Assembly (NCBI GenBank): GCA_017649945.1
Contig: JAGCFU010000002.1
Location: 1 to 36,162, forward strand
Source of the DNA: Bacteroidales bacterium
GTDB lineage: Bacteria; Bacteroidota; Bacteroidia; Bacteroidales; F082
DNA: 36,162 nt
Reading direction: 5' to 3'
Part shown: piece after piece, positions 6,663 through 25,462 of the stretch
Layout of the letters: every line of letters starts with the position of its first letter
Position numbering within the stretch: the first letter of the stretch is position 1
Notes under the pieces: model-generated
Told to the model about the DNA's origin: nothing
What the model saw: only the letters and a program-made list of their open reading frames with translations
Database searches by the model: none
Program-made: the position numbers and the translations under genes

Positions 6663-7223
6663 ATGGAAAACAACGAATTAGACGAAATGAGGGCGCAGCT
6701 TGCCACCTTAAACGAGAAGCTGGAAAAAGAAAGCATCGTAAGCGATAAGCATATTAGCGAAGCCACTAAGAAACATATATCCGAGTTGCAACGTAAACTG
6801 ATACGCAGAATCATCGTACTCAGTGTGATGTCACCTATTATGGCTCGTTATGTCGGGCTTTATTTCGCATTGTGGTGCTTGGTAATCATCATTTTAAACA
6901 TCTATGTATATCGAGTGGTTAACAAAGGCAATTATGCTTCTGCATCGGTGACTGAATACACGCAAAGCGTACGTAAAGCTCTGAAAACATTCAAAAGGAT
7001 AAATAGGTTTATGTGGTTTTTCAGCATATCGTTAACAATGTTGTTGGGAATAGTTATGTTTATTGGAAATTTGCAAACAATACCAAGACTGGCATACGTT
7101 AGTATAATGGTTTGTTCATTTTTTTCTTTTATATTATGGATCGCCTACTACATCAGCAACGTTATGATATCACCAGATGTTGAACTCATGTTGGAAAAAA
7201 TTTTAAAAGATTTGGAGGAATAA
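6663..7223 (+). CDS. Four-helix membrane protein, probable anti-sigma partner
   Basis: 186 residues. Residues 1-48 are a charged, probably coiled-coil cytoplasmic segment. Hydrophobic helices lie near 49-62, 65-86, 117-136 and 142-164, with a basic cytoplasmic loop between helices 2 and 3 (VRKALKTFKRINR) and a short acidic tail. Position directly after an ECF sigma gene and a soluble N-terminus on a membrane anchor suggest an anti-sigma role. The multi-pass topology differs from the classical single-pass FecR/ZAS type and no known anti-sigma motif is visible. Confidence 0.6.
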   Translation: MENNELDEMRAQLATLNEKLEKESIVSDKHISEATKKHISELQRKLIRRIIVLSVMSPIMARYVGLYFALWCLVIIILNIYVYRVVNKGNYASASVTEYTQSVRKALKTFKRINRFMWFFSISLTMLLGIVMFIGNLQTIPRLAYVSIMVCSFFSFILWIAYYISNVMISPDVELMLEKILKDLEE

Positions 7224-7230
7224 TTATCCT

Positions 7231-8658
7231 ATGAAATACAAATTTTTACTACTGTTAGCTTTGTTGCCAATCACTGATTTTGCTCAGCAATCAAACATCA
7301 TTTACACCGATTCGGTAGTGATGAATTCGAAACAATATCTGAAAGGCAATGATTATCAGAAAGATTTTCTGCTTTTCTTGAATATGCTCGAAAATACCCA
7401 TCCGGCGTTTGCAATGGAAAATCCGTCGCTTGACATCAAGAAAATCAGAAAAGTAGGGTATAAGGAGCTGAAAAAAATCAGCGATTCAGAGAAATTCGCA
7501 TTGTATCTGGAATCGATTGTCTCACAGCTGCACGACGGACATACCTATATTTATTGCAATTATCCGAGCGACACTATCTTCCCGATGGCGTTCAAATACT
7601 TGAACAACGAGTTTTTTATCCAAGGCGTTGAAGAAGGTAATGATGAATTTATCGGCAAAAAGATAATGACAGTCAACGGTTTTGATATGTACGATGTGAT
7701 GATGAGCTTCGGTTCGCTGTTGTCGTGCGACAATGACATTTTTCTGATTGAGCGCTTTAATTGTATAACAAAATTTTGCTGGAAAGATAGCAAATACAAC
7801 ACTCAAGAGGCGTTGACAGTCACATGCGACGACGGTAGTTCGTTGAATCTGAATTGTTTAAGTGCCAAGGAAATCAAGTGGAAATGGGTTGAAACCAAAC
7901 CTTTGCAGTCGCCGTATCAAAAAACTCAAATGCCTTTCAGGTATGAGGTTTATCCGGAAAACGGCATCTGCTATCTGCAATTTAGCTCGTGCAAGGATAA
8001 AAACACCTTGCGTTTTCAATTCCAAGCGAGAGGTTTCAACGGTATGACCGAAGAGGAGTTTGAAGAGAAAATCAAGGATATTCCACAATTTGACATGTTT
8101 TTGCAGGAGGTTTTTGATACTATTCAAAAGCTTGATATTCAGACGCTTGTGGTTGATGCTCGAAGTAACAGTGGCGGCAACAGTATGCTGTGTGACCAGC
8201 TTCTTTCGTGGCTGAAACCTGTTGATGAAATTAAGTCGTTTGACTCGCAGAAACGCATTTCAAAACTTATGGAGGCCAATTATCCTAATGCCGTGGGCAA
8301 TCTGTTCACAATGAACACTGATGCTGACAAAGTTTTTAAAGGTAATGTGTATTTCATTCAGGATAATGGCACTTTCAGCAGTGCGGCAATGTTGATAGTG
8401 ATGGCGACAGATAACAACATCGGCATCGTTATCGGCGAAGCAGGTTCATATCGCCCTTGCCATTTCGGCGATGTTCTCAGCTATGAATTGCCCAATACAC
8501 ATGTGAAAGGAGGCGTTAGCCATGCTTATTTCATGCGACCAGACAAAGATGCCTGTGGCGAAAATAGTCTGATTCCGACAATTCATATCCAACGCACCTG
8601 GCAAGATTTCATTGAAGGAAACGACCCATGGTGGCAATATATACTAAACAATCAATGA
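7231..8658 (+). CDS. S41-family (C-terminal-processing/tricorn-like) peptidase homologue, exported
   Basis: 475 residues with a signal peptide ending TDFA|QQSN. The S41 hallmarks are QLHDGHT at residues 99-105 (His104 as in tricorn-like S41 proteins), DARSNSGGN (the ID.R.N.GG motif) and GTFSSAAM at 380-387, where Ser383 or Ser384 is the expected nucleophile. No PDZ domain is obvious. Location should be periplasmic or outer-membrane associated. It is the last gene of the second sigma operon, seven bases after the membrane protein. A role in cleaving an envelope protein or acting in the sigma cascade is inferred, not shown. A long stem-loop begins five bases after its stop. Confidence 0.85.
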   Translation: MKYKFLLLLALLPITDFAQQSNIIYTDSVVMNSKQYLKGNDYQKDFLLFLNMLENTHPAFAMENPSLDIKKIRKVGYKELKKISDSEKFALYLESIVSQLHDGHTYIYCNYPSDTIFPMAFKYLNNEFFIQGVEEGNDEFIGKKIMTVNGFDMYDVMMSFGSLLSCDNDIFLIERFNCITKFCWKDSKYNTQEALTVTCDDGSSLNLNCLSAKEIKWKWVETKPLQSPYQKTQMPFRYEVYPENGICYLQFSSCKDKNTLRFQFQARGFNGMTEEEFEEKIKDIPQFDMFLQEVFDTIQKLDIQTLVVDARSNSGGNSMLCDQLLSWLKPVDEIKSFDSQKRISKLMEANYPNAVGNLFTMNTDADKVFKGNVYFIQDNGTFSSAAMLIVMATDNNIGIVIGEAGSYRPCHFGDVLSYELPNTHVKGGVSHAYFMRPDKDACGENSLIPTIHIQRTWQDFIEGNDPWWQYILNNQ

Positions 8659-8663
8659 TTTCC

Positions 8664-8742
8664 TTTTCAGAATATGCAAAAAATCAGGCCTTGCGGTGAT
8701 TTCTGAGAAATTACCCAGACTGATTTTTGCATATTCTGAAAA
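8664..8742 (+). repeat. Imperfect palindrome element, copy 1 (possible terminator)
   Basis: A 79 base element: outer arms at 8664-8687 and 8720-8742, an inner stem GGTGATTTC/GAAATTACC closed by loop TGA, and between the stems the unpaired or weakly paired strands GGCCTTGC and CCAGA. It starts five bases after the S41 stop. The distal arm contains TTTTTG (8724-8729), which may also serve as the -33 region for the next gene. Related copies occur at 12207-12285 (opposite orientation) and 18784-18858. Confidence 0.85.
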
Positions 8743-8746
8743 TTAT

Positions 8747-8754
8747 TATTTTTG
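8747..8754 (+). promoter_or_regulatory. -7 box for the 8775 lipoprotein gene
   Basis: TATTTTTG matches TAnnTTTG. A TTG at 8727-8729 lies 17 bases upstream, inside the distal arm of the palindrome. Leader about 15-20 bases. Confidence 0.5.
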
Positions 8755-8774
8755 CAAATCAAATACTTAATCCA

Positions 8775-10190
8775 ATGAAAACAAAATTATTATTCTTGCT
8801 GATTGCTGCATTGTTTGTAATCACAGGGTGCAAAAAAGACAAAATTGACAATGATTCGGGAAATAATTCCGGCGCTAACGTTAATTTAAATGGTCCGTTG
8901 TGTTTTACTGCCGAGGAAGATAACTCGACCATTGCAATTCATATATATAGGTCTGAAGTAATGAATTTTCCCAATATTGAATACAGTTATGATACAATTG
9001 TTTGGGAAACATACGTACACTTAAGCACCGAGATAAGATTGGAACATGCCGGCGACAAGGTTTATTTCAGAGGAAATAACCCAGAGGGGCTCTATGCAAA
9101 TATACCTACGAATCAAAATTTAAAGTTTGATACATACAATAAGAAATTCACGGTAAGCGGAAATCTAATGTCGCTTATTGACCCTTCGTGCAAGACGACA
9201 ACAGTTCCTGATTATTGTTTCCGTGATTTATTTAGTGGCACATATATAACAACACCACCAGCTCTGCCTGCGACAACATTGGGAAAGGAATGTTACTGCA
9301 GATTGTTCAGCGGCTGCATTTATCTTAAAACCGCCCCCGAACTGCCAGCGACAACAATGGCAAATGATTGTTATAGAGGCATGTTTTGGTATTGCATCAG
9401 TTTAAAAGATGCCCCTCAATTACCGGCAATAACCTTGGCGGATAATTGTTATGAAAATATGTTTGATGGCAGCGGTATTATAGAAGCTCCGGAACTTCCG
9501 GCAATGACCTTGGCAGATAAATGTTATGCCAATATGTTTACCGATTGCAAACAGCTCACGAAAGCTCCAAGGTTGCCTGCAACTTCATTAAAAGATGGGT
9601 GTTATATGGCAATGTTTTTAGGTTGTAGTAAACTCACAGCGGCTCCGGAATTGCCGGCAACGTCTTTAGCCAATGATTGTTACGCACACATGTTTGCCGG
9701 GTGTAAAAGTATTACAACAACTCCAAGACTTCCTGCGTTATCTTTGGCTGATCGTTGTTATGAAACCATGTTTGGCAATTGTGATGGTTTGACAACTGTT
9801 TTAGAACTACCTGCAACTACCCTGGCTAATGGTTGCTATTCACAAATGTTTCATGATTGTATCAATCTGACAAATATTCCTGACATTCTTCCAGCAACTA
9901 CTTTGACAAATTCATGTTATGAAGCCATGTTTTATAACTGCGCAAATCTTGAAAAAGCGCCTGAACTTCCGGCAACCACTTTGGCAAGCCGCAGTTATAT
10001 GTCAATGTTTAAGAATTGTTCAAGTTTAAAAAGCATCAAAGTGCATTTGCCCGAATGGGGTGATGAATTAGACACATATTTCTGGGTATTGGATGTGCAG
10101 TCTGATGGAGTATTTTACTGCCCAAGTTCATTGCCACAAGAATTTGGTGTACACAATATACCCGAAGGTTGGACTGTTGTAACATTTTAA
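8775..10190 (+). CDS. Surface lipoprotein with ten or so 26-residue Cys/Leu-rich repeats
   Basis: 471 residues from ATG 8775; an upstream TTG at 8727 lies within the palindrome and is unlikely. The lipoprotein signal has lipobox VITGC with Cys19 followed by KKDK and acidic residues. Residues ~140-420 are repeats of about 26 residues with consensus APELPATTLA-x-x-CY-x-x-MF-x-x-C-x-x-L. Each has a CY..MF..C core and an LPA-T turn, a pattern related to BspA/DUF285-type leucine-rich repeats. The C-terminus (GVFYCPSSLPQEFG...IPEGWTVV) looks like the capping segment common in such proteins. Expected role is surface adhesion or ligand binding; no enzyme motif. Repeats differ by many substitutions, so it is not a recent expansion. 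Confidence 0.8.
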   Translation: MKTKLLFLLIAALFVITGCKKDKIDNDSGNNSGANVNLNGPLCFTAEEDNSTIAIHIYRSEVMNFPNIEYSYDTIVWETYVHLSTEIRLEHAGDKVYFRGNNPEGLYANIPTNQNLKFDTYNKKFTVSGNLMSLIDPSCKTTTVPDYCFRDLFSGTYITTPPALPATTLGKECYCRLFSGCIYLKTAPELPATTMANDCYRGMFWYCISLKDAPQLPAITLADNCYENMFDGSGIIEAPELPAMTLADKCYANMFTDCKQLTKAPRLPATSLKDGCYMAMFLGCSKLTAAPELPATSLANDCYAHMFAGCKSITTTPRLPALSLADRCYETMFGNCDGLTTVLELPATTLANGCYSQMFHDCINLTNIPDILPATTLTNSCYEAMFYNCANLEKAPELPATTLASRSYMSMFKNCSSLKSIKVHLPEWGDELDTYFWVLDVQSDGVFYCPSSLPQEFGVHNIPEGWTVVTF

Positions 10191-10201
10191 TACTTAATCC
10201 G

Positions 10202-10681
10202 ATGAAAAATATATTATTATCACTTTTAATTACTATTATTTGTTTTTCGTGCTCCGGACAGAATGGAATTTTAAAAGAAGAGAAGGCTAAGATTCATGAA
10301 GTTATTGAAAATCACGACAAAACGTTGATTTTCATCTGGAGTGAAAGCTGTGGAGCGAGCAAAAATATGCTCGAAAGAGACATCAAGCCTTATCTTGAAG
10401 GTCTTGAAAAAAACAATGTCGGCATTGTCATCATTTATTATGGAAAAGAAGAGGCTGTCGCCGATTTGAAAGCAGATAATAGGCTGATTATCAGCTCAAA
10501 CTTGTCAGCTCTATTTGGTAAAATTAATGCTAACAAAACCATGAAGAAAATCCTGAAAGACTACAAAAAGTTCAATGGATTTCCGATCCCAATTCTTGTC
10601 GACAAAGACGGTTTTGTGCTGAACTACGACGCCAAGAGCAAGTATTATAGCTATTGGGAGATATTTCAAGCGGCGAAATAA
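10202..10681 (+). CDS. Thioredoxin-fold lipoprotein with CxxS instead of CxxC
   Basis: 159 residues; ATG 10202 is chosen over an upstream TTG because it gives a clean lipoprotein signal (CFSC, Cys17). The fold is suggested by TLIFIWSESCGAS (strand, then Trp-x-x-x-Cys at residue 50) and by the cis-Pro region GFPIPILVDKDGFV near 126-139. The active-site pair reads C-G-A-S, so the resolving cysteine is Ser53. A monothiol site of this kind suits isomerase or trapping roles rather than simple disulfide reduction; that is inference. It starts 11 bases after the repeat lipoprotein, so the two are probably co-transcribed. Confidence 0.75.
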   Translation: MKNILLSLLITIICFSCSGQNGILKEEKAKIHEVIENHDKTLIFIWSESCGASKNMLERDIKPYLEGLEKNNVGIVIIYYGKEEAVADLKADNRLIISSNLSALFGKINANKTMKKILKDYKKFNGFPIPILVDKDGFVLNYDAKSKYYSYWEIFQAAK

Positions 10682-10763
10682 TAGGGATTTTCCCCAACCT
10701 TTTAGGGTTTTAGGAATTGACAAGCAAGATTTTTAATTGTAATTTTGCATAAAACTTCATTCT
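10682..10763 (+). promoter_or_regulatory. Control region, copy 1 (nearly repeated at 18862)
   Basis: Contains TTG at 10717-10719 and TAATTTTG at 10740-10747 with 20 bases between, the ideal Bacteroidetes promoter layout. Upstream, at 10682-10720, is a motif with GGGATTTTCCCC and TTTTAGGGTTTTAGGAATTGAC. Almost the same layout and bases lie before the gene at 18947, including the ACTTCATTCT that touches the start codon. Confidence 0.75.
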
Positions 10764-12203
10764 ATGAAAAAACAATCGCTCCTATGCTCAATATTCGTCT
10801 CATTGATCCTATTAGGTCTATTATCTTTTAGTGCTTCCGCGCAAAATGATAACGCATTGAATATCAATGTAATAGTTGCGGATACTACAGGTAAAACTTT
10901 AAAAGATGTTGCCATTTATAACTCACAACAAAATCTTATCGGAATCACAAATAATTTCGGAAAAACCAATATATCGGCTCGTTACGGCGATGTGATTGTG
11001 TTTTCTCGTGTCAATTATGAGCAGAAATATATGACTGTTTCTGGCGAAACAATCTTCAAACAGGAAGATGACAACAATTATATGCTGGTGTATCTCGTTG
11101 CGAAGACAAATGTATTGCCAGAAGCTGAGATTGTTGAACATATGCCGCATTTGGCATATAGCAACAAGCAAGTCTGGGTCTCTGATTACAAAGTGAATGA
11201 TGCAGGAATGTATCTCATACTTGACAACAATTCCGAGCATTCGCTGATATTTCTTAGCCATGAGCAGGATACTCTCGCAAAGTCGAAAATCAACAAAAAA
11301 TATGATTATCTTTACGAAGACGCTTTCGGAAATATACATCTTCTTGGCTTGGATTCGGTTTATCAGACTTATTACGACGGCGAGAAACTGAATATGCTTT
11401 ATCCTGTTGATATTCAGACTTTTAAGCAAAAACTGATGCCAGTTCAGGTCATTACCGACAGCTTGCTGATTTTGCAACAATACGCTTCGATGTGGCAGGA
11501 GATTTTTTACATTAGCGTTAACCGCAACAATAAGGAAACCAAGACTTTAATCGATTGTTACGGTCCGACAAGAGAGTGGGGAAGGTACTTTTATAGAGAT
11601 ATGATGAAAGACGGACTGATTGACAGGATGGAGATGGAGAATCCGATGTTTCCGAAAGTTATGGAAATGCTTGGTGTTCAGTCGAATAGCGCTTCCGGAG
11701 AGCCTTATGCTGACAATGGAGTTGATGAACTTACCAGAATGAACGATTATGTTGATTTTAATAACAGCCAACGTGCAAGATATGTTGTAAATCCTATTTA
11801 TTGTCCGATAGCGTTTTTCAATGACACTATTTATGTCTTTAATTTTGAGAACGACAGGCTTTACAAATTCACGGAAAACGGGACTTGGGTCTCGGTTTGC
11901 GACCTGACTTTTCACCGTACGACTTATCGTAAAAACAGCCGTATTGGGAACACTTGGGATAAAAAAATCATCATCGACAAAGCACTCGGCAAGTGTTACG
12001 CCCAATTTACGAAAGACGGCCTTGTTACCTTGAAAGAGGTTGATTTACAAACGGGTACGATAAAGAAAGAGATAAAATTAACCCATCATTATTACCCGGA
12101 AAACATACAAGTTCACAACGGCACGGTTTATTACAAATTTATTGATGTCCGACAAGTTAATGGCCGCGACTGCCGAAGCTTATATAAAATGAAGTTGAAA
12201 TAG
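10764..12203 (+). CDS. Exported CarboxypepD_reg-like / beta-rich protein (paralogue A)
   Basis: 479 residues with a signal peptide ending SASA|QNDN. Residues ~33-100 have the CarboxypepD_reg-like beta-sandwich pattern (INVIVADTTGKTLKDVAIYN, then ITNNFGKTNISARYGD). They are followed by VLPEAEIVEHMPHLAYSNKQ, which resembles the linker before a TonB-receptor plug, but no barrel follows. The remaining ~340 residues are short beta strands with recurring 'DSVYQ', 'NDTIYVFNFENDRLYKF', 'LTFHR' and 'LVTLKEVDLQTGT' segments, suggesting a propeller-like fold. Relatives are at 15260, 16319, 17725 and 18947. Periplasmic or surface location is expected. Function unknown. It has its own promoter and a palindrome three bases after the stop. 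Confidence 0.7.
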   Translation: MKKQSLLCSIFVSLILLGLLSFSASAQNDNALNINVIVADTTGKTLKDVAIYNSQQNLIGITNNFGKTNISARYGDVIVFSRVNYEQKYMTVSGETIFKQEDDNNYMLVYLVAKTNVLPEAEIVEHMPHLAYSNKQVWVSDYKVNDAGMYLILDNNSEHSLIFLSHEQDTLAKSKINKKYDYLYEDAFGNIHLLGLDSVYQTYYDGEKLNMLYPVDIQTFKQKLMPVQVITDSLLILQQYASMWQEIFYISVNRNNKETKTLIDCYGPTREWGRYFYRDMMKDGLIDRMEMENPMFPKVMEMLGVQSNSASGEPYADNGVDELTRMNDYVDFNNSQRARYVVNPIYCPIAFFNDTIYVFNFENDRLYKFTENGTWVSVCDLTFHRTTYRKNSRIGNTWDKKIIIDKALGKCYAQFTKDGLVTLKEVDLQTGTIKKEIKLTHHYYPENIQVHNGTVYYKFIDVRQVNGRDCRSLYKMKLK

Positions 12204-12206
12204 CAG

Positions 12207-12285
12207 TTTTAAGAATATGCAAAACTCAGTCTGGATAATTTCTTCGAAATCACCGCAAGGCCTGATTTTTTGCAAATTCTTAAAA
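12207..12285 (-). repeat. Imperfect palindrome element, copy 2 (inverted orientation)
   Basis: Read on the minus strand this 79 base element is almost the same as copy 1: AATCAGGCCTTGC, inner stem GGTGATTTC/GAAATTATCC with loop GAA, then CCAGACTGA. Outer arms begin TTTTAAG and end CTTAAAA, where copy 1 has TTTTCAG and CTGAAAA, so a pair change keeps the stem. It starts three bases after the stop of paralogue A. Confidence 0.85.
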
Positions 12286-12304
12286 CGTTATATTAAAAAA
12301 TAAT

Positions 12305-12312
12305 TATCTTTG
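12305..12312 (+). promoter_or_regulatory. -7 box immediately before the TPR-TM-HTH gene
   Basis: TATCTTTG lies only four bases before the GTG start at 12317. Transcription starting the usual few bases after the box would begin at or very near the start codon, giving a leaderless or almost leaderless mRNA. Confidence 0.55.
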
Positions 12313-12316
12313 CCAT

Positions 12317-13861
12317 GTGAAAAAGCTCCACCTCATATTGTTAATTCTGATTTCAGTGATGATTTTTGCCCCTTGCACAAGTCATAGAAAACCGTTAGAC
12401 GCTGAAAAACAATACAAAATATCTCCTGAGCTCCTTCACATCGACAGCCTCATGTGGCTGCAACCTGACAGCGCCACCAAGGAATTGTCGAGATTTTGGG
12501 CGAACTACAACATTGACAGCACCGATACATTTAATAAACATTATTTCAATTTACTCGTTTCGGAAATACGCTATAAGAACGGAATCCCACAAAACAGAGA
12601 GCGTCTGTTGAAGGCGGTCAATTATTTCGACACTACCGATTCTTGGCTTTCGGCTCGCGCCCATTACATGAACGGTGTGGGGTTTAAAGCAGAAGATAGT
12701 GTTGTTGAGGCTTTGTATGAGTATCTGCACGTTTTGGATATCATGGATGAGCATATCTCAACACCACCGCATACACGTTTCATGATGCTGATTCATTGCC
12801 GCATCGGTGATTTGTTTTCGGACCAGTATATGCAGGAACCAGCTATTGTTTGCTATGAAAATGCATTAAAATACAATAACTTGGGCGAGTGCGTGCCTTT
12901 TGAGCGTTCCATTTTATTGCAGAAATTGGGCTTCCAATACGACAAACTGCAAAAATATGACACTGCCCGATATTATTATGATGAAGCCTTGCACCTAAGT
13001 CCTGATATTAACAATTCAAATTACAAAATGCTGCAGTTTTATAAGGCGATGCTTGATTGCACCTCTGGCGCTGACTTTGAACACGGAATCGTTGAATTGA
13101 AACAATTGGCGTCGCAATGTTCGGAGTCGAGCCGCGATTGGAGATATGTCAATATTGGGTTGGTTTATCAGGAAGCTGGACATGTCGATTCTGCGCTGGT
13201 TTATCTTCAAAAAGCTTTCGACTATGGCATCAATGATGCTGTGAAATCTTATGTGGCAGAGTTTATTTATGATATTTATGAAAGCCAAGACGACACCCTC
13301 AAAATGGCCGAATTTGCTGAATATCTCATCGAAAAACCATCAAATGAACGTGTCAGCATGGCTCGTGTATCGACACTCAATGCAATGTTTCAGGATTATC
13401 TGAATCGTCATCAGGAAAGACTGCAAAATCAAAACCGGAAGAGGGCGGTAATATCAGTTTCAATAGTTGTCGCAATAATTTTGTTGATAGTGTTAATTAT
13501 GATAAAAATTAGGAGTCAAAAGATACAAAAGTTGCAGCAATCATTGGACGACAACAAACGCCTTCAATTTGAATCATTGCAGAAACGTGCAAAATTGATA
13601 TTCAATGAGAAGAAAAACGAATCTTTGCGACTAATAATAGACGAATTCAAATCAGTTTATCCGGACATTTTTAAAAACATTCCGGAAACTTATACGAATA
13701 TCTCCGAAACTGAGCGTAACATTGTTATTTTAAATCTACTCAACTTCCGAATCAAAGAAGAAGCCATAATTTTGAACTTGAGCGAAAACACGGTGATGAA
13801 ATATCGCTCCAACCTCAAAAAGAAAGTCGATTTTGACCTGATTTCGTTACAGATCAAATAA
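12317..13861 (+). CDS. TPR / transmembrane / C-terminal HTH regulator
   Basis: 514 residues. After an N-terminal hydrophobic export segment, residues ~30-365 form tetratricopeptide-like helical pairs (AIVCYENALKYNN, TARYYYDEALHLSP, SALVYLQKAFDYG). A transmembrane helix lies at ~376-397, then a coiled coil (~400-435) and a HTH at ~462-503 (ETERNIVILNLLNFRIKEEAIILNLSENTVMKYRSNLKKK) resembling LuxR/GerE-type DNA-binding ends. The TPRs would face the periplasm and the HTH the cytosol, a one-component membrane regulator seen widely in Bacteroidetes. The start is GTG because an overlapping ATG runs directly into TGA. It likely controls nearby exported-protein genes. A shorter relative is at 24645. 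Confidence 0.82.
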   Translation: MKKLHLILLILISVMIFAPCTSHRKPLDAEKQYKISPELLHIDSLMWLQPDSATKELSRFWANYNIDSTDTFNKHYFNLLVSEIRYKNGIPQNRERLLKAVNYFDTTDSWLSARAHYMNGVGFKAEDSVVEALYEYLHVLDIMDEHISTPPHTRFMMLIHCRIGDLFSDQYMQEPAIVCYENALKYNNLGECVPFERSILLQKLGFQYDKLQKYDTARYYYDEALHLSPDINNSNYKMLQFYKAMLDCTSGADFEHGIVELKQLASQCSESSRDWRYVNIGLVYQEAGHVDSALVYLQKAFDYGINDAVKSYVAEFIYDIYESQDDTLKMAEFAEYLIEKPSNERVSMARVSTLNAMFQDYLNRHQERLQNQNRKRAVISVSIVVAIILLIVLIMIKIRSQKIQKLQQSLDDNKRLQFESLQKRAKLIFNEKKNESLRLIIDEFKSVYPDIFKNIPETYTNISETERNIVILNLLNFRIKEEAIILNLSENTVMKYRSNLKKKVDFDLISLQIK

Positions 13862-14003
13862 AAAATCTGTATATCTCATCTTGTAACTTGTTGCTATTCA
13901 AATTGTTGCCCAAATTACTGGCGACAAAAATCTGTACTCCAAATTTCCTCTTTTTTTCCTGCGATTTTTTGCTATAATTTTGAAGTGAAAAAAACATTAT
14001 TTC
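13862..14003 (+). promoter_or_regulatory. Intergenic region with promoter for the esterase-like operon
   Basis: A 142 base AT-rich gap. TAATTTTG at 13975-13982 is a good -7 box, 21 bases before ATG 14004. The -33 position holds a T-run rather than TTG. No stable hairpin was found after the HTH gene, unlike the other transcription unit ends in this block. Confidence 0.5.
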
Positions 14004-15263
14004 ATGAAAACAAAATTATCACTTTTATTAATCCTATTTGCACTATCATCTTGTTGCAACAAAACCTCCATCGAGTCTCAACTTTCCGACAAATTCACCA
14101 CCTACAATGAGTATTCAGAAAGCTTCGAAACACTGGCCGATTTTGTCAAAGACAAACGAATCGTCATCCTCGGTGAATGCGGTCATGGCGACGGCCGTAC
14201 TTTTGAAATAAAATCGGAAATTGTCAGATATTTGGATTCCGTAGGCGATTACACCTTGATTCTTGAAGGAATGAATCCCTTTGACGGCGCGATTCTTAAC
14301 AAAGAACTACCTGTGCTGATCATCAATAAATCCGGGTTAAACATCCAAAACTGTTGGTATGGGCTGTGGAGTCAGACCAAAGAAGCAGCCGAACTGGCCG
14401 GTGCAATGGACAAAAACAAAATCGACTTTTACGGAATGGATGTACAACCTTCGTATTGCAGTTATTTCCAGATAGCATATTTGAGCAATCTGTTTTACTC
14501 CGATTCGATAATGAAACAGTGGCTTTTTGACTATAATTGGGAAAAATTACTTGAAATTGACAACAAATTGCATCAATACAACGATTCTCTCATAAATGAA
14601 TCTGATTATCCGTACTATGACAGCTCTTTGCTAGCGATGAGGAATAAGTTAAGCGATAACGATGTCTCTTTCAACAAAGATGCTGTTTTGTTATTGATTG
14701 ACAATATGTTGTCGTTCTCACATCAGGCAAAATGCGGATTTTCCATTACGTGCGATTCATGTATCGACCGTGGCATTATGATTCGCGACCGACAAATGGC
14801 TGAAAATGTGGCATGGTACATCAATCATCATCCTGAAAAGAAAATCATCATCTGGGCAGCTAATTTCCATGGGGCAAAGGCTATTTCACAGATAAAATAC
14901 GGCAAAGAGCCTAACCCAGACTTGTATGACAGATACACTTTGTTGGGCGAGCATCTTGCGAACATGTTCCCGAATCAGGTTTATTCCATTGCTTTCACAT
15001 CTGGTGGCGGTGAAGTGGGGTATTTTAATCAAGACGAAAGCTATCCTATTCAGCCTGATTCAATCTCGGTGGAATTTGCCCTGCGGCAACGTGGCATCAA
15101 CTATGGCTTTCTTGATTTTGGCAGTCATCACGAGTTTGAAGATGTGCCATTCCACAGCATCCTTCTTGGTTATCACAACAAAATCGGCAAATGGGTAAAG
15201 TCATTCGATGCGATATTTTACATCAAAGAGCAACATCGGGCGACACAAGTAATTGAACAATGA
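14004..15263 (+). CDS. Erythromycin-esterase-like lipoprotein
   Basis: 419 residues with lipobox LSSC (Cys17). It matches the erythromycin esterase superfamily (PF05139). Motifs are GECGHGDGRTFEIK at residues 57-70 (Glu58 and His61 correspond to the GExxHG catalytic pair), DFYGMDVQP at 141-149, RDRQMAENVAW and IIIWAANFHG with His289. The family hydrolyses macrolide lactones in EreA/EreB, but most members have unknown substrates. The lipoprotein anchor and an operon with three exported proteins (ATGA overlap at 15260) argue for an envelope function rather than drug resistance. Confidence 0.85.
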   Translation: MKTKLSLLLILFALSSCCNKTSIESQLSDKFTTYNEYSESFETLADFVKDKRIVILGECGHGDGRTFEIKSEIVRYLDSVGDYTLILEGMNPFDGAILNKELPVLIINKSGLNIQNCWYGLWSQTKEAAELAGAMDKNKIDFYGMDVQPSYCSYFQIAYLSNLFYSDSIMKQWLFDYNWEKLLEIDNKLHQYNDSLINESDYPYYDSSLLAMRNKLSDNDVSFNKDAVLLLIDNMLSFSHQAKCGFSITCDSCIDRGIMIRDRQMAENVAWYINHHPEKKIIIWAANFHGAKAISQIKYGKEPNPDLYDRYTLLGEHLANMFPNQVYSIAFTSGGGEVGYFNQDESYPIQPDSISVEFALRQRGINYGFLDFGSHHEFEDVPFHSILLGYHNKIGKWVKSFDAIFYIKEQHRATQVIEQ

Positions 15264-16312
15264 AAAATTCAATTATAACTCTCATTTTTTCCCTGCTGTG
15301 CGGCTTAACCATGTCCGCGCAGCAGGATACATGTGCAAAAGCTATAACGCTCGACGCTGTTTATGTCACCGCCGAAAAAGTAACCTATTTCCGTAGCAAA
15401 CCAAATTTCGTGATGCTCGATTTCGAGGTTAATGACAACAAATTCTTCATCCTGCAAAAGAAATTTGGCATAAACACTGATTATCGCGTTCTAATTACCG
15501 ATTTGTTTTATGAGCCAATTGACACTATATTTTTACCGAAACATATTGAGCCAGAGCATATTATCCTCGATTGCATGAATCACTGCCAGATAATGGGCCA
15601 GGACTCGGTTTATCAGATCGTTGAAATTGAAAATGATTTTATTATCGACTTTCCAAATGAAAAACAATATTACAAAACAGTCATGGACAATGTCCTTTTC
15701 ATTACCGATAAATATTTGTATCTCAATGAATTAAAACTTGATGGATATGTTTCGAGATTTTACAGAATCAATTTGTCAACCAAGAAAAAGGAGGATTTGT
15801 TTTTTAGTGACGACTCAAAATCGTTTCGTGAAGTTCAAAGAGAACTTAAGTGGCATGAAGCACATATGCATGTTGTTGATAATATTTGTCACAGCCCGTC
15901 TGTCGAGGATTGGGAAGTTTTTATAAAAAATGCGTGGTATCACACAAAAAACTGTTATCTTGCGAAAGTGGCTGATACTCTTTACTATTTCGATCATCTT
16001 AACTGCAGAATTGAGGCTTATGATGAGACTATGAATCTGCTTAATAGTTGCGAAATATCTTATCCTGAAAAACAAAACTATTGGCGTCACACTATCTATC
16101 AAGACCGCGCCTGGGGCACTTTCTACACCATATTCGGCACAACTTTGAACGAAATCGACATCAAAACCGGCAAAACAATCCCTAAAATCAACGCCAACAA
16201 CTATCTCAGCCAAAAGATGATAATCTACAAAGGAAATCTATATTCTCTGAAAAAGCGTAGAGATTCAGGCAACGCCGAAATATCATTTATCGAAAAAACA
16301 AAGCTTTATTAA
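15260..16312 (+). CDS. Exported beta-rich protein (paralogue B, no CarboxypepD_reg domain)
   Basis: 350 residues with a signal peptide ending MSA|QQDT. It lacks the N-terminal sandwich and goes directly to AITLDAVYVTAEKVTYFRSK, equivalent to the 'LPEVEI' linker of its relatives. The rest is strand-rich, with 'QDSVYQIVEIEN', 'DTLYYFDHLNCRIEAYDE', 'TLNEIDIKTGK' and a terminal 'MIIYKGNLYSLKK' that lines up with the ends of the others. It is the most divergent member. It overlaps the esterase-like gene by ATGA and precedes paralogue C by six bases. Function unknown. A propeller-like fold is inferred. Confidence 0.62.
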   Translation: MKNSIITLIFSLLCGLTMSAQQDTCAKAITLDAVYVTAEKVTYFRSKPNFVMLDFEVNDNKFFILQKKFGINTDYRVLITDLFYEPIDTIFLPKHIEPEHIILDCMNHCQIMGQDSVYQIVEIENDFIIDFPNEKQYYKTVMDNVLFITDKYLYLNELKLDGYVSRFYRINLSTKKKEDLFFSDDSKSFREVQRELKWHEAHMHVVDNICHSPSVEDWEVFIKNAWYHTKNCYLAKVADTLYYFDHLNCRIEAYDETMNLLNSCEISYPEKQNYWRHTIYQDRAWGTFYTIFGTTLNEIDIKTGKTIPKINANNYLSQKMIIYKGNLYSLKKRRDSGNAEISFIEKTKLY

Positions 16313-16318
16313 AGTCTT

Positions 16319-17728
16319 ATGAAAAAGTCATCGCTCATATTACTCCTATTCATCCTATTAGCCTTATTCGCCCTATTCGTCCTATCCCCATCTCGCGTTT
16401 CTGCTCAAAATTTTTTAGTCTCTGGTAATGTCGGAATTAAAGATGTCAATATCACAGAAAACACCACTTTCATCGGCACCTCATCCGACAAAAACGGCAA
16501 TTTCCAACTCAAAATTTTCTCTGAAGACGCAACGTTGCGTTTTACTTGTGTCGGATATGCTGATACGATTATATCATTGAATTCCAATGATTTCCATAAT
16601 AGGGAAGCATCGATAATATTCAAAATGCGACAAATCAGCTACGACTTGCCGTCGGCAGAAATATCTGCTTCCAAATACTTCTATCGCAGCAAATTTGGCG
16701 TTTCTATCGTGGATATTTCGTTCATAGATGATAAAACTCTAATCCTTGAAAACAAAAAATCAAAATCAGAACTTAAAGTTATTGATAATGAAGGAAATAA
16801 TGTCGCTAACATCAAGTTTGACAGCCTCTATAATGAGATTTTTTTGGATTTTTTCAACAATTATATTCTTGTAGGCGAGCATTATTGCCAGCAGATTCGG
16901 TTCGACGATGACTATTCCATCGGGAAAGTGGCTAATTTTTCAAGAAAAGACTTTGAAGAGAAACTGCGAGTAGGAGTGAGAAAGTTCAATGACTGCTTTG
17001 TTTTTAAAGACAAGCCATTGATTGTCAACAATATTTATGCTCGTCGTGATCATAACAAAAGCATCGGATATTTCTATATAAATCCCAACGATTCTATTGT
17101 TGAGCGTCATCAGATTCATCGTTTTATTGATGAAGAAGGTTATAAGGCTGCAGCTGCACTTTATGCGGAGATAATCTCGCTTTACCATGCGTTTTCTGAT
17201 GAAAACGATGACTTGATAAAGCTCGGCTTATGGGATGGCAACCTTATGCGCATCTTGCCCGAACCTGAATGCTCGTTCGCTGTCGAAGCTCCTTGCGGCT
17301 GGCGAACTCGCTGTTTCGTATACATAAACCAATATATTAAACTCGATGCCAAACCATTGAACATCAGTGTTTTTGATAAAGACAATATCTTGTATTTTGT
17401 TTATTTGGATGAAATGAAACTCCTGTCTTTCGACGATAATTTCAATCTTTTAAGTGAAAAAGATATTGAACTTGGCGCTAATGCCAAATATTTTACAAAT
17501 ACAATAATTGAAGATTGTGCTACCGCTGATATTTACGGAGTTTTTGTAAAAGACGGAATCAGTTTTCTTGCTTCGCTCGATTTGGAAACCGCCAAGTTTG
17601 AACATCTTACAAAGGTATCAAACTTTATTTATCCCAACGTATTGAAAATCAACAATAATATTGCCTATTGCGCCTATTTCAATGCCGAAAAACAATATAG
17701 TTTCATCCAAAGAACAACAATAAAATGA
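16319..17728 (+). CDS. Exported CarboxypepD_reg-like / beta-rich protein (paralogue C)
   Basis: 469 residues with a signal peptide ending VSA|QNFL. The hydrophobic core of that signal is coded by five in-frame 9-base units (16345-16389). Residues ~32-100 look like a CarboxypepD_reg-like domain (GNVGIKDVNITENTTFIGTSSDKNGNFQLKI, then VGYADT). Then come DLPSAEISASKYFYRSK and a beta-rich region with 'DNILYFVYLDEMKLLSFDDN' and 'DGISFLASLDLETAKF', close to segments of the others. The stop overlaps the start of paralogue D (ATGA, 17725-17728). Function unknown. Likely periplasmic or surface. Confidence 0.65.
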   Translation: MKKSSLILLLFILLALFALFVLSPSRVSAQNFLVSGNVGIKDVNITENTTFIGTSSDKNGNFQLKIFSEDATLRFTCVGYADTIISLNSNDFHNREASIIFKMRQISYDLPSAEISASKYFYRSKFGVSIVDISFIDDKTLILENKKSKSELKVIDNEGNNVANIKFDSLYNEIFLDFFNNYILVGEHYCQQIRFDDDYSIGKVANFSRKDFEEKLRVGVRKFNDCFVFKDKPLIVNNIYARRDHNKSIGYFYINPNDSIVERHQIHRFIDEEGYKAAAALYAEIISLYHAFSDENDDLIKLGLWDGNLMRILPEPECSFAVEAPCGWRTRCFVYINQYIKLDAKPLNISVFDKDNILYFVYLDEMKLLSFDDNFNLLSEKDIELGANAKYFTNTIIEDCATADIYGVFVKDGISFLASLDLETAKFEHLTKVSNFIYPNVLKINNNIAYCAYFNAEKQYSFIQRTTIK

Positions 17729-18783
17729 AAAATCTATTCATCCTATTCGTCCCTTTGGCCCTATTCGTCCTATTACCAATTACTGCTTCCGCTCAAGAAA
17801 ACATCGCGTTTAAAGTTGAGCTCCCCGAAGCCACTATCACCGCCCAAAACATTCCCCATATCGCCTACAACAACAAGGTTGTCAGCATCGCCGATTTCGA
17901 AATCAACGACATGGGAATTTACATCCTCGCACATCGCATAAGGAACTACTCTCTGCTGCATCTCTCGTTCGATTTCGACACCATCGCTGAAATAAATCTG
18001 CCTAGAAAATTCGATAAGCTTTACAAAGATGTTTACAACCAGATTCATGTGGTCAGCCAAGACTCTGTTTACTGGGTCGGCACCATGAAACGAGGCGACG
18101 AAATCGCTGGAATGGCACTGATGATGGGCATCCGGAAAGACCAGTTCGACTACATTCACAAGCACGTTTCAGCCGCCACCGATAAGGTGATAATCACTCA
18201 TTTATACGCCAACGGAAACCAGGAACTCTATTATTTCGATATCGGAGGTTGCGACGGAAAAGTTGATACAACTCTTCTCGAGCACATTCGTTGGGAAGAG
18301 GGATGTGACTTGATGTTCAACATCCGCATGTTCGGTCCAATGGGACTGAAAGGGGAGGCGCAGTCGCTTTTCTTGAAGCCCATTTACGACCCTGTTTTTA
18401 ATATGAACAACGAGATTTTTGTGTTCAACTTCGAAGACAACATCATCAATCTTTACGACAACTGCGCCCAGAAACTCAACTCGTTTCCTCTTACATTCCA
18501 CAAACGCAAAAGTTGGGGCAACAAAATCCGTTTGGTCGACGGCTGGAACAAAAAAGTGCTTATGGACGCCCCAAACAATGCATTCTACGCTGTTTTTTTA
18601 AGCGATGGCATTACTACTCTAAAGAAAATCGACATCGCTACAGGAACAGCTGAAACCACTGCTGTTTTCGGAGGGTTCCCATTTATCGACGACAAACTCA
18701 AAATATATGATGGCAAAGCATATTTTCTTTACGCCAATGACGTTTCGCGAAACAAAAGATTATACGAAGTTACAATCAATTAG
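17725..18783 (+). CDS. Exported beta-rich protein (paralogue D, no CarboxypepD_reg domain)
   Basis: 352 residues with a signal peptide ending ASA|QENI. The start of the mature protein is directly the linker ELPEATITAQNIPHIAYNNKVVSIADFEIND. This and the C-terminal LPEs are clearly closest to paralogue E: 'PLTFHKRKSWGNK', 'DGITTLKKIDIATGTAE' and 'LKIYDGKAYFLYAND...RLYEV'. It thus equals E without the N-terminal sandwich. It is the last gene of the esterase-like operon and the palindrome copy 3 begins at the base after its TAG. The signal peptide region repeats CTA-TTC-xTC units (17734-17778). Confidence 0.68.
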   Translation: MKNLFILFVPLALFVLLPITASAQENIAFKVELPEATITAQNIPHIAYNNKVVSIADFEINDMGIYILAHRIRNYSLLHLSFDFDTIAEINLPRKFDKLYKDVYNQIHVVSQDSVYWVGTMKRGDEIAGMALMMGIRKDQFDYIHKHVSAATDKVIITHLYANGNQELYYFDIGGCDGKVDTTLLEHIRWEEGCDLMFNIRMFGPMGLKGEAQSLFLKPIYDPVFNMNNEIFVFNFEDNIINLYDNCAQKLNSFPLTFHKRKSWGNKIRLVDGWNKKVLMDAPNNAFYAVFLSDGITTLKKIDIATGTAETTAVFGGFPFIDDKLKIYDGKAYFLYANDVSRNKRLYEVTIN

Positions 18784-18858
18784 TTTTAATGATATGCAAA
18801 AAATCAGGCCTTGCTGTATGCGAAGCATATCCAGACTGATTTTTGCATATCATTAAAA
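18784..18858 (+). repeat. Imperfect palindrome element, copy 3
   Basis: A 75 base element beginning at the first base after the stop of paralogue D. It keeps AATCAGGCCTTGC and CCAGACTGA but has a different inner stem (TATGC-GAA-GCATA) and different outer arms (TTTTAATGAT with ATCATTAAAA). The arms still pair perfectly, so pairing is conserved while bases changed. Same orientation as copy 1. Confidence 0.85.
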
Positions 18859-18861
18859 CGT

Positions 18862-18946
18862 TAGGATTTTTCCCCAAATTTTTAGTGTTTTAGGAATTGA
18901 CAAGAATAGTTTATAGTTATAATTTTGCACAATAAAACTTCATTCT
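18862..18946 (+). promoter_or_regulatory. Control region, copy 2 (nearly repeats that at 10682)
   Basis: TTG at 18897-18899 and TAATTTTG at 18920-18927 with 20 bases between. The upstream part has GGATTTTTCCCC and TTTTAGGAATTGACAAG; the last bases before the ATG are AAAACTTCATTCT. All of this parallels the region before paralogue A. Confidence 0.75.
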
Positions 18947-23230: not shown

Positions 23231-23233
23231 ATA

Positions 23234-23264
23234 AAAGCGGCCGAGGCAACGCCTCGGCCGCTTT
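23234..23264. terminator. Bidirectional terminator between dnaN and the 23270 gene
   Basis: A perfect 14 bp stem AAAGCGGCCGAGGC with loop AAC and its complement. It lies between convergent genes, so it serves both. The same stem sequence, with one mismatch, recurs at 25405-25445. Confidence 0.88.
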
Positions 23265-23269
23265 CGTTT

Positions 23270-23821
23270 TTAAAATAGTAATCCACTCACAGCGACACCT
23301 AACATAATGCTATGAACATAGCCTACAGTTTCATCTTTACAAGGTAACGAGCAGTTGTATTGCAATCGTATCATCCAGATGTCGTTATGCTTTGACTTCT
23401 TATTTTTATAGAACTTGAAATCGAGATTTGTACCGGCAGAAGGCGCTGGAAGATTTTCTAAGCTGGAGTCATGACCGAAATACATGATACCGAATCCCAA
23501 GAACGGAGTGATTCCCCAAACATTCCCGTCGATGACATTGTAGCCAGCTCGCAATCCGTAATCAAACATGTCGTTATCTGAGCCCCATCCTTTTGAGGCA
23601 TATAATGAAGCCTGGATCCGATTGTAAAGGACATCAACACTCCATAAGCAGGAGCCGTAATCGTTGAAATCTTTTGCAAAATCATCGGAGTTGTAAGTGT
23701 ACCCTCCTAAAATCGCAGTTCCCAAACGCCATCTTGATTGTGAAGACGATTCTTGACCAAAGAAGATGTTTGCCGAGGAAATCAGCAGCACCGCTAACAG
23801 AAACGATTTATACTTTTTCAT
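23270..23821 (-). CDS. Small exported outer-membrane beta-barrel-like protein
   Basis: 183 residues. The signal peptide ends at NIFFG|QESS. The mature part alternates polar and hydrophobic or aromatic strands (WRLGTAILGGYTYN, FDYGLRAGYNVI, WGITPFLGFGIMYFG, DIWMIRLQYNCS, MLGVAVSGLLF) and ends in Phe, as for an eight-strand OmpA/OmpX-like barrel. No peptidoglycan-binding domain follows. The gene starts 14 bases after the stop of the glycine-zipper gene upstream, suggesting one operon. Function unknown. Confidence 0.6.
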   Translation of the reverse strand: MKKYKSFLLAVLLISSANIFFGQESSSQSRWRLGTAILGGYTYNSDDFAKDFNDYGSCLWSVDVLYNRIQASLYASKGWGSDNDMFDYGLRAGYNVIDGNVWGITPFLGFGIMYFGHDSSLENLPAPSAGTNLDFKFYKNKKSKHNDIWMIRLQYNCSLPCKDETVGYVHSIMLGVAVSGLLF

Positions 23822-25404: not shown

Positions 25405-25445
25405 ATAAAAAAGCGGCCGAGGCAACGCCTCGACCGCTTTTTTAT
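25405..25445 (-). terminator. Terminator of the 25463-27576 minus-strand genes
   Basis: A 19 bp stem (one mismatch) with loop AAC on the plus strand, flanked by A- and T-runs, so active in both directions. The core GCGGCCGAGGC is the same as in the dnaN terminator, 2.2 kb away. Confidence 0.88.
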
Positions 25446-25462
25446 TCATAAAATGAAGGATA

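Follow-up and report, generated by a model that had tools for sequence, protein, structure and literature searches.

A dispersed palindrome with a conserved internal loop and compensated arms at gene ends in one genus of uncultured rumen Bacteroidales

The window, by which we mean the whole 36,162-nt stretch of Bacteroidales DNA analysed here, contains three copies of a palindromic element, each just past the stop codon of a gene. Copy 1 (8664..8742, plus strand) starts 5 nt after the stop of a gene with a Peptidase_S41 domain (7231..8658, plus strand), copy 2 (12207..12285) starts 3 nt after a gene without a Pfam match (10764..12203, plus strand), and copy 3 (18784..18858, plus strand) begins 0 nt after the stop of another gene without a Pfam match (17725..18783, plus strand). 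The positions and spacings agree with an earlier note made on this DNA. In copy 1, the outer arms TTTTCAGAATATGCAAAAA/TTTTTGCATATTCTGAAAA enclose the inner hairpin GGTGATTTC-TGA-GAAATTACC. Between the two stems lie a 5′ core strand, TCAGGCCTTGC (8684..8694, plus strand), whose GCCTT is unpaired, and a 3′ core strand with AGACTGA (8715..8723, plus strand), whose AGA is unpaired. Copy 2 carries its core on the minus strand and has the inner hairpin GGTGATTTC-GAA-GAAATTATCC, while copy 3 combines the arms TTTTAATGATATGCAAAAA with the inner hairpin GTATGC-GAA-GCATATCC. The earlier note had described constant strands, GGCCTTGC and CCAGA, between the stems, TGA or GAA loops, a swapped inner stem, and outer arms whose changes are matched in the partner arm. 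All of these were borne out, and in the three copies the outer arms match each other at 95-100% along 19-20 nt. Because the element comes close to a perfect palindrome, calling copy 2 'inverted' means only that its asymmetric core is on the other strand.

RNA folding in the core orientation gave z = -9.4, -6.1 and -6.8 for copies 1, 2 and 3, respectively, and for each copy 0 of 200 shuffles folded as well as the native sequence. On the opposite strands, copy 1 gave z = -9.4 (0/200 shuffles as good) and copy 2 gave z = -4.0 (1/200). Rfam at the gathering score matched only 5S rRNA in the window and no family at the element; at E ≤ 10, 32 sub-threshold matches appeared, the best with 27.1 bits against a cut-off of 63. 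Ordinary terminator-like hairpins in the window lie about 3-15 nt past stops. Two of these (23233-23275 and 25409-25451; AAAAGCGGCCGAGGC..GCCTCGGCCGCTTT) are 86% alike across 43 nt, so other terminators of this genome may also be repeats. Two 71-nt upstream regions with a promoter-like stretch (10682-10752 and 18862-18932) are 82% alike, the second lying directly 3′ of copy 3, and a tandem repeat of about 78 bp occupies 9313-10010 within a BspA-type leucine-rich-repeat gene. The site of copy 1 is also occupied in five other genomes (G011, G026, G041, G052 and G109), and G052 has an element at the place of copy 2. When 7171-16390 is compared with the G052 locus L071, part of the gene ending at 10681 is seen to occur twice in G052, the two copies being separated by an element and about 2.2 kb.

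The earlier note supposed that these copies belong to a dispersed family, and covariance-model searches found one. A model built from 56 diverse elements (R2) located 14 places at E ≤ 1e-6 in the source genome, which is 84% complete and in 92 contigs; one further element there, before an rRNA operon, was spotted by eye. An eight-copy model (R1) matched 16 of 60 genomes of the same genus at E ≤ 0.01, two of them weakly. Across the bacterial family, R2 matched 19 of 173 genomes at E ≤ 1e-6, all from this genus and none from the 15 other genera, and an order-wide sample gave matches at E ≤ 1e-5 in 3 of 295 genomes, again all from this genus and none from others, with the stricter filters of these two large searches losing weak matches. 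The total is 119 places from 19 genomes, including one doubtful place (L238, over a called ORF) that is also counted among the 112 distinct elements used below. Eight rows of a look-alike family II and a TTAGAC direct-repeat artefact were dropped from both counts, and an earlier 97-row set that still holds look-alikes was kept out of them.

A sequence-only core pattern gave 29 matches in 25 stretches of named GTDB genomes, of which 26 are Bacteroidales/Bacteroidia MAGs and 3 are unrelated bacteria. Several of the MAGs are named after ruminants (red deer, yak reticulum, goat omasum, water buffalo abomasum). For the 26 Bacteroidales matches, pairing of the flanks outside the pattern beat all 200 shuffles in 21, tied in 1 and fell below in 4, three of which have an A-run longer by one A, a variant that the scorer disallowed. 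Flank pairing did not exceed shuffles in the 3 matches from unrelated bacteria or in 2 viral ones; viral carriers were rejected, the two viral matches being unpaired sequence. Plasmids and phages yielded no element match. In the covariance-model searches, the element is confined to one genus of uncultured rumen Bacteroidales.

Each element is about 75-85 nt long. Its outer stem of about 22 bp has arm letters that vary freely yet stay complementary, often with a one-base A bulge. There are also CAG/CTG pairs, and the internal loop is asymmetric and conserved, with the unpaired strands GCCTT and AGA. The inner hairpin comes in 21 types, six of which account for 99 of the 119 elements. In an alignment of 56 elements, drawn from 72 diverse ones with the 4-row look-alikes left out and preselected for at least 18/22 paired positions, 47 to 55 elements pair at each of arm positions 8-20, with 4-6 standard pair types per position, as against 42-72% pairing expected from column composition. 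Because these elements had been preselected for pairing, less biased tests were added. Exact matches to the core had at least 14 of 17 arm pairs at 69 of 85 loci, most of which had originally been fetched with the structure model, compared with 0 of 17 matches to two permuted patterns. With the alignment fixed, the covariation score was 0.370, against 0.161 when shuffled and at most 0.213 when slid, and 203 cells were changed on both sides against 79. Pairs showing a double change anywhere were no more numerous than in the controls (20 versus 18.5 shuffled, a value reached by 103 of 500 shuffles). The outcome that the earlier note had named as refuting, three copies alone and no support from covariation, did not arise.

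We give practically no credence to chance, or to three segments having simply been duplicated. It is true that copies 1 and 2 show 89% complementarity across 88 nt, but the 119 places in 19 genomes, the pairing around exact cores and the pairing of flanks found by pattern alone refute this explanation. The earlier note had argued that conserved loops and varying helices mark a selected structure and not plain duplication. Such a pattern is by itself no proof of selection, since hairpin template switching could have produced some of the covariation unaided. Template switching is reported to homogenise the arms of inverted repeats and to invert their spacers (PMC8604942), and to produce compensatory changes in RNA hairpins as well as inverted loops in bacterial rRNA (PMC8794818). 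The family also cautions against taking covariation alone, when the palindrome is a repeated one, as proof of RNA function. It offers a naturally occurring example of strong covariation that could stem from selection, template switching, or both, with many orthologous sites available for telling them apart.

An apparent excess of wobble pairs, considered as a sign of RNA action, was dropped. The first counts in core orientation were 63 G-T/T-G versus 20 A-C/C-A (37 versus 14 by arm cluster), obtained from elements whose filter had scored wobbles as paired. The excess shrank with Watson-Crick-only filters (28 versus 16, p=0.10; 19 versus 13, p=0.38) and with a symmetric filter (131 versus 111, p=0.22). 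In the inner stems, 50 G-T and 2 T-G face 4 A-C/C-A, with few shared inner types behind these counts. Among tandem elements, G-U tolerance on the mRNA strand was not above that on the complement (17 versus 17).

As the earlier note had anticipated, many copies lie near stop codons. A facing stop is at most 25 nt from the arm end in 77 of the 112 distinct elements, and the median distance is 9 nt among the 101 that have one. By context, 48 elements are tandem, 33 convergent, 3 divergent, 14 overlap ORFs, as judged against mechanically called ORFs, and 14 sit at the edge of the fetched stretch. Both stops are at most 30 nt away at 19 of the 33 convergent sites, which leaves little room for another terminator, and in tandem contexts the median distance is 12 nt to the upstream stop versus 68 nt to the next start. 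The core points with the abutting gene in 30 of the 48 tandem cases and against it in 18, in keeping with the REP-like placement in both orientations that had been proposed; with similar arms collapsed, the counts are 3 same and 7 opposite. The arm beside the core is A-rich at the left and T-rich at the right, also among unrelated arms. A run of at least four T follows the core directly in 7 of 11 arm clusters, whereas the 10 nt after that hold one in 2 of 11, and the run beside the core lies inside the outer stem.

The placement at stops, the sharing by convergent genes, the A- and T-runs and the replacement by simple hairpins at one site (see below) favour a bidirectional transcript-end or boundary element. 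The covariation score, which exceeds its shuffled and slid controls, and the similar position of the ordinary terminator-like hairpins in the window also count for it. On these features of the DNA, we lean towards reading the family as a lineage-restricted, REP-like dispersed palindrome that marks transcript boundaries in both directions. Whichever side transcription came from, the RNA would form a hairpin of about 75-85 nt with a core hairpin, and such a hairpin, preceded by an A-rich and followed by a T-rich run, may stop RNA polymerase or shield the mRNA 3′ end, much as the earlier note had suggested of a terminator or 3′-end protector. In tandem contexts the element would define the end of one gene's transcript, and between convergent genes the ends of both.

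Several observations speak against a boundary role. The outer arms run past the T-run, an extension needless for an intrinsic terminator; 3 calls are divergent and 14 overlap mechanically called ORFs; the copies upstream of rRNA operons lie off gene ends; and a simple terminator scan of the window listed none of the three copies. The rRNA-upstream region of G052 already has a canonical-looking terminator, and neither the mRNA-strand G-U tolerance nor the count of double-change pairs exceeds its control. The element resembles a bidirectional intrinsic terminator in lying right past stops, in being common to convergent genes and in its tendency towards an A-run before and a T-run after the core hairpin, the T-run lying inside the outer stem, and differs in the outer stem that continues beyond the T-run, in the conserved internal loop and in going unlisted by the simple scan.

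A second set of elements, with different and often G-rich arms, lies upstream of rRNA promoters. The rRNA leader pattern was found at 10 loci in 8 of 30 genomes, and at 9 of these 10 the corresponding position holds a palindrome that pairs 16-18 of its 20 arm bases. Taken by itself, a score of 16 says little: at G043:C20, where one arm of the palindrome has been lost, an A/T-rich stretch scores as high. GGCCTT is exact at 8 of the 10 loci, the decayed one included; at G032:C66 a single base of it is changed, and the palindrome at G043:C11 lacks the core. Among element-negative relatives, 10 of 20 genomes yielded a 16S start, at 18 loci in all. For 15 of these 18, the 240 nt before the promoter held no palindrome with a GCCTT/AGA core, only A/T-rich repeats or the terminator-like hairpins of upstream genes. 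Before rRNA promoters, the element may serve as an insulator. The family gives ruminant Bacteroidales a searchable putative boundary element, with one form that precedes rRNA promoters.

Comparison of orthologous sites suggests that copies were both spread and lost within one subgroup of the genus. After mnmA, 3 of 27 genomes have the element (G005, G043, G035), one has a coreless palindrome with similar arms (G026), two have simple terminator-like hairpins (G015, G032), and the remainder have unrelated palindromes or nothing clear. After a permease gene, 9 of 20 loci carry the element directly past the stop, 1 carries it about 60 nt on, and 10 are without it; here G109 is filled, G032 is cleanly empty and G115 has another palindrome. 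Presence and absence at one site in close species are what would be expected of a selfish mobile palindrome of the MITE or REP kind, moved in trans by a putative enzyme reading the folded core, with insertions off gene ends being lost. Like arms at unrelated genes, tandem pairs and arrays, and the occurrence of both orientations fit this explanation as well. However, G109 and G032 are the sole clean filled/empty pair and show no clear target-site duplication by eye, the RAYT domain is unlinked, plasmids and phages are without matches, and the rRNA-upstream place is filled at 9 of 10 loci by palindromes whose arms are unrelated, which suggests maintenance in situ. A selfish palindrome is in our judgement unlikely, though far from negligible.

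The linked RAYT gene raised in the earlier note was not encountered: PF01797 has no match in the source genome (84% complete), and across 60 genomes of the genus it occurs in 6 of 16 element-positive genomes and 36 of 44 others. Two of those six have weak element matches and two have only an 82-position match. With no positive association, the RAYT link was discarded. Likewise, a general GTAG/CGTC tag at the element end was absent among the 112 elements: within the outer 12 nt, GTAG occurs 16 times at the left and 4 at the right and CGTC once at the left and twice at the right, the left-end GTAG cases fitting one subfamily (TTTTTGTAG).

The inner hairpin changes within otherwise similar elements. 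Among sites common to at least two genomes, 7 of 21 combine arms that agree at 18/22 positions or more with differing inner types. By pairs, which are not independent, 49 of 117 same-site pairs at that threshold differ, 9 of them matched on both flanks, and a looser count, for arms that agree at 19/22 or more, gives 46 of 112. In one such pair (G000:C22:8686 and G011:C4:26193), the flanks are 96.75% identical over 400 nt and the arms agree at 22/22, and the inner hairpin differs. These pairs are also what a dedicated putative enzyme would produce if it recognised the split loop in a folded strand and swapped inner hairpins within fixed palindromic frames. No such enzyme emerged from the analysis, and the pairs could equally well have arisen by ordinary gene conversion among copies, different-site pairs sharing their inner type in 24.9% of cases within a genome and 14.9% between genomes. 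We regard enzymatic exchange as very unlikely indeed, and conversion as the probable route by which inner hairpins are exchanged. A combination of the two ideas strikes us as a long shot: the hairpins would mark transcription boundaries at gene ends and before rRNA operons, and a putative dedicated enzyme would recognise their split GCCTT/AGA loop on the folded strand and exchange the inner hairpins within constant palindromic frames. Were it true, the shape would be passed on even as the sequence kept being replaced.

The arms turn over and yet stay complementary, so the family could also be mostly a mutational product, with hairpin template switching keeping and rewriting gene-end palindromes of little function. 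The arm homogenisation and spacer inversion reported in PMC8604942 and PMC8794818 suit this explanation, as does the rRNA-upstream site, where the core is reversed in G115 and G133 relative to G005, G032, G039, G046, G052 and G140, judged on one flank. In-place reversal had at first appeared at 5 of 21 sites, and a both-flank check left the rRNA-upstream site as the well-supported case. Overall, reversal was seen in 36 pairs on one flank and in 0 on both, some of the 36 outside the rRNA site comparing different neighbouring elements. Arm correction should moreover erase the GCCTT/AGA asymmetry, whose persistence argues for constraint on the loop, although the searches were themselves keyed on the core. 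Nor would such an origin explain the confinement to 19 genomes or the placement at stops. A mainly mutational origin is thus rather improbable; within the boundary-element reading, the arms may be kept up by selection and template switching together.

The element is probably a new relative of known repeated hairpins. Its family was not described in the titles and abstract openings of open-licence papers, and may still be in print. REP elements, with GTAG and CGTC super-families, are described (PMC3733652) as dispersed palindromes of 20-40 bp, between tandem or convergent ORFs and downstream of coding regions, with proposed roles in termination and mRNA stability. The present element is likewise a dispersed extragenic palindrome at gene 3′ ends, but it is 75-85 nt long, its arms are unconserved in sequence while the split internal loop is conserved, GTAG marks the left arm end of just 16 elements out of 112, and the element has no linked Y1 transposase. 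The stem-loop families of Cozzuto et al. are also repeated sequences sharing a common stem-loop, are intergenic and in some cases were suggested as terminators; here, arms change and the loop is kept, and the words 'Bacteroid', 'compensatory' and 'covariation' are absent from the accessible part of that paper (PMC2267715).

A different likeness is to integron attC sites, which are palindromes of free sequence with conserved unpaired positions next to stop codons. All three properties recur here, but the present element lies between convergent chromosomal genes, in mixed orientation and without a cassette array.

Gene 3′ ends in this genus appear as slots that may be filled by one palindromic repeat in one species and by another in a close relative. 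After mnmA, the slot holds a palindrome of CGCAGAT units at L197, L198 and L201 (G011, G052, G039). Palindromes with TCATTGCGAG or TCATTTCGAG, which we take to be REP-like, fill it at L216 and L217, and fill the permease slot at L264 (G034, G020 and G115, respectively). About 150 nt past mnmA (124214-125269) in G033, a Y1 transposase match (G033:C8:125420-125764) adjoins the palindrome CCGTCCCTACGGG..CCCGTAGGGG. Look-alike family II (L145, L147, L148, L150, L152, L153, L158, L132) has arms around the core CCTTGCGTYAAGCTGAAAA and near-identical copies at several places in G054, and at the orthologous site L109/L152 it stands where G026 has family I.
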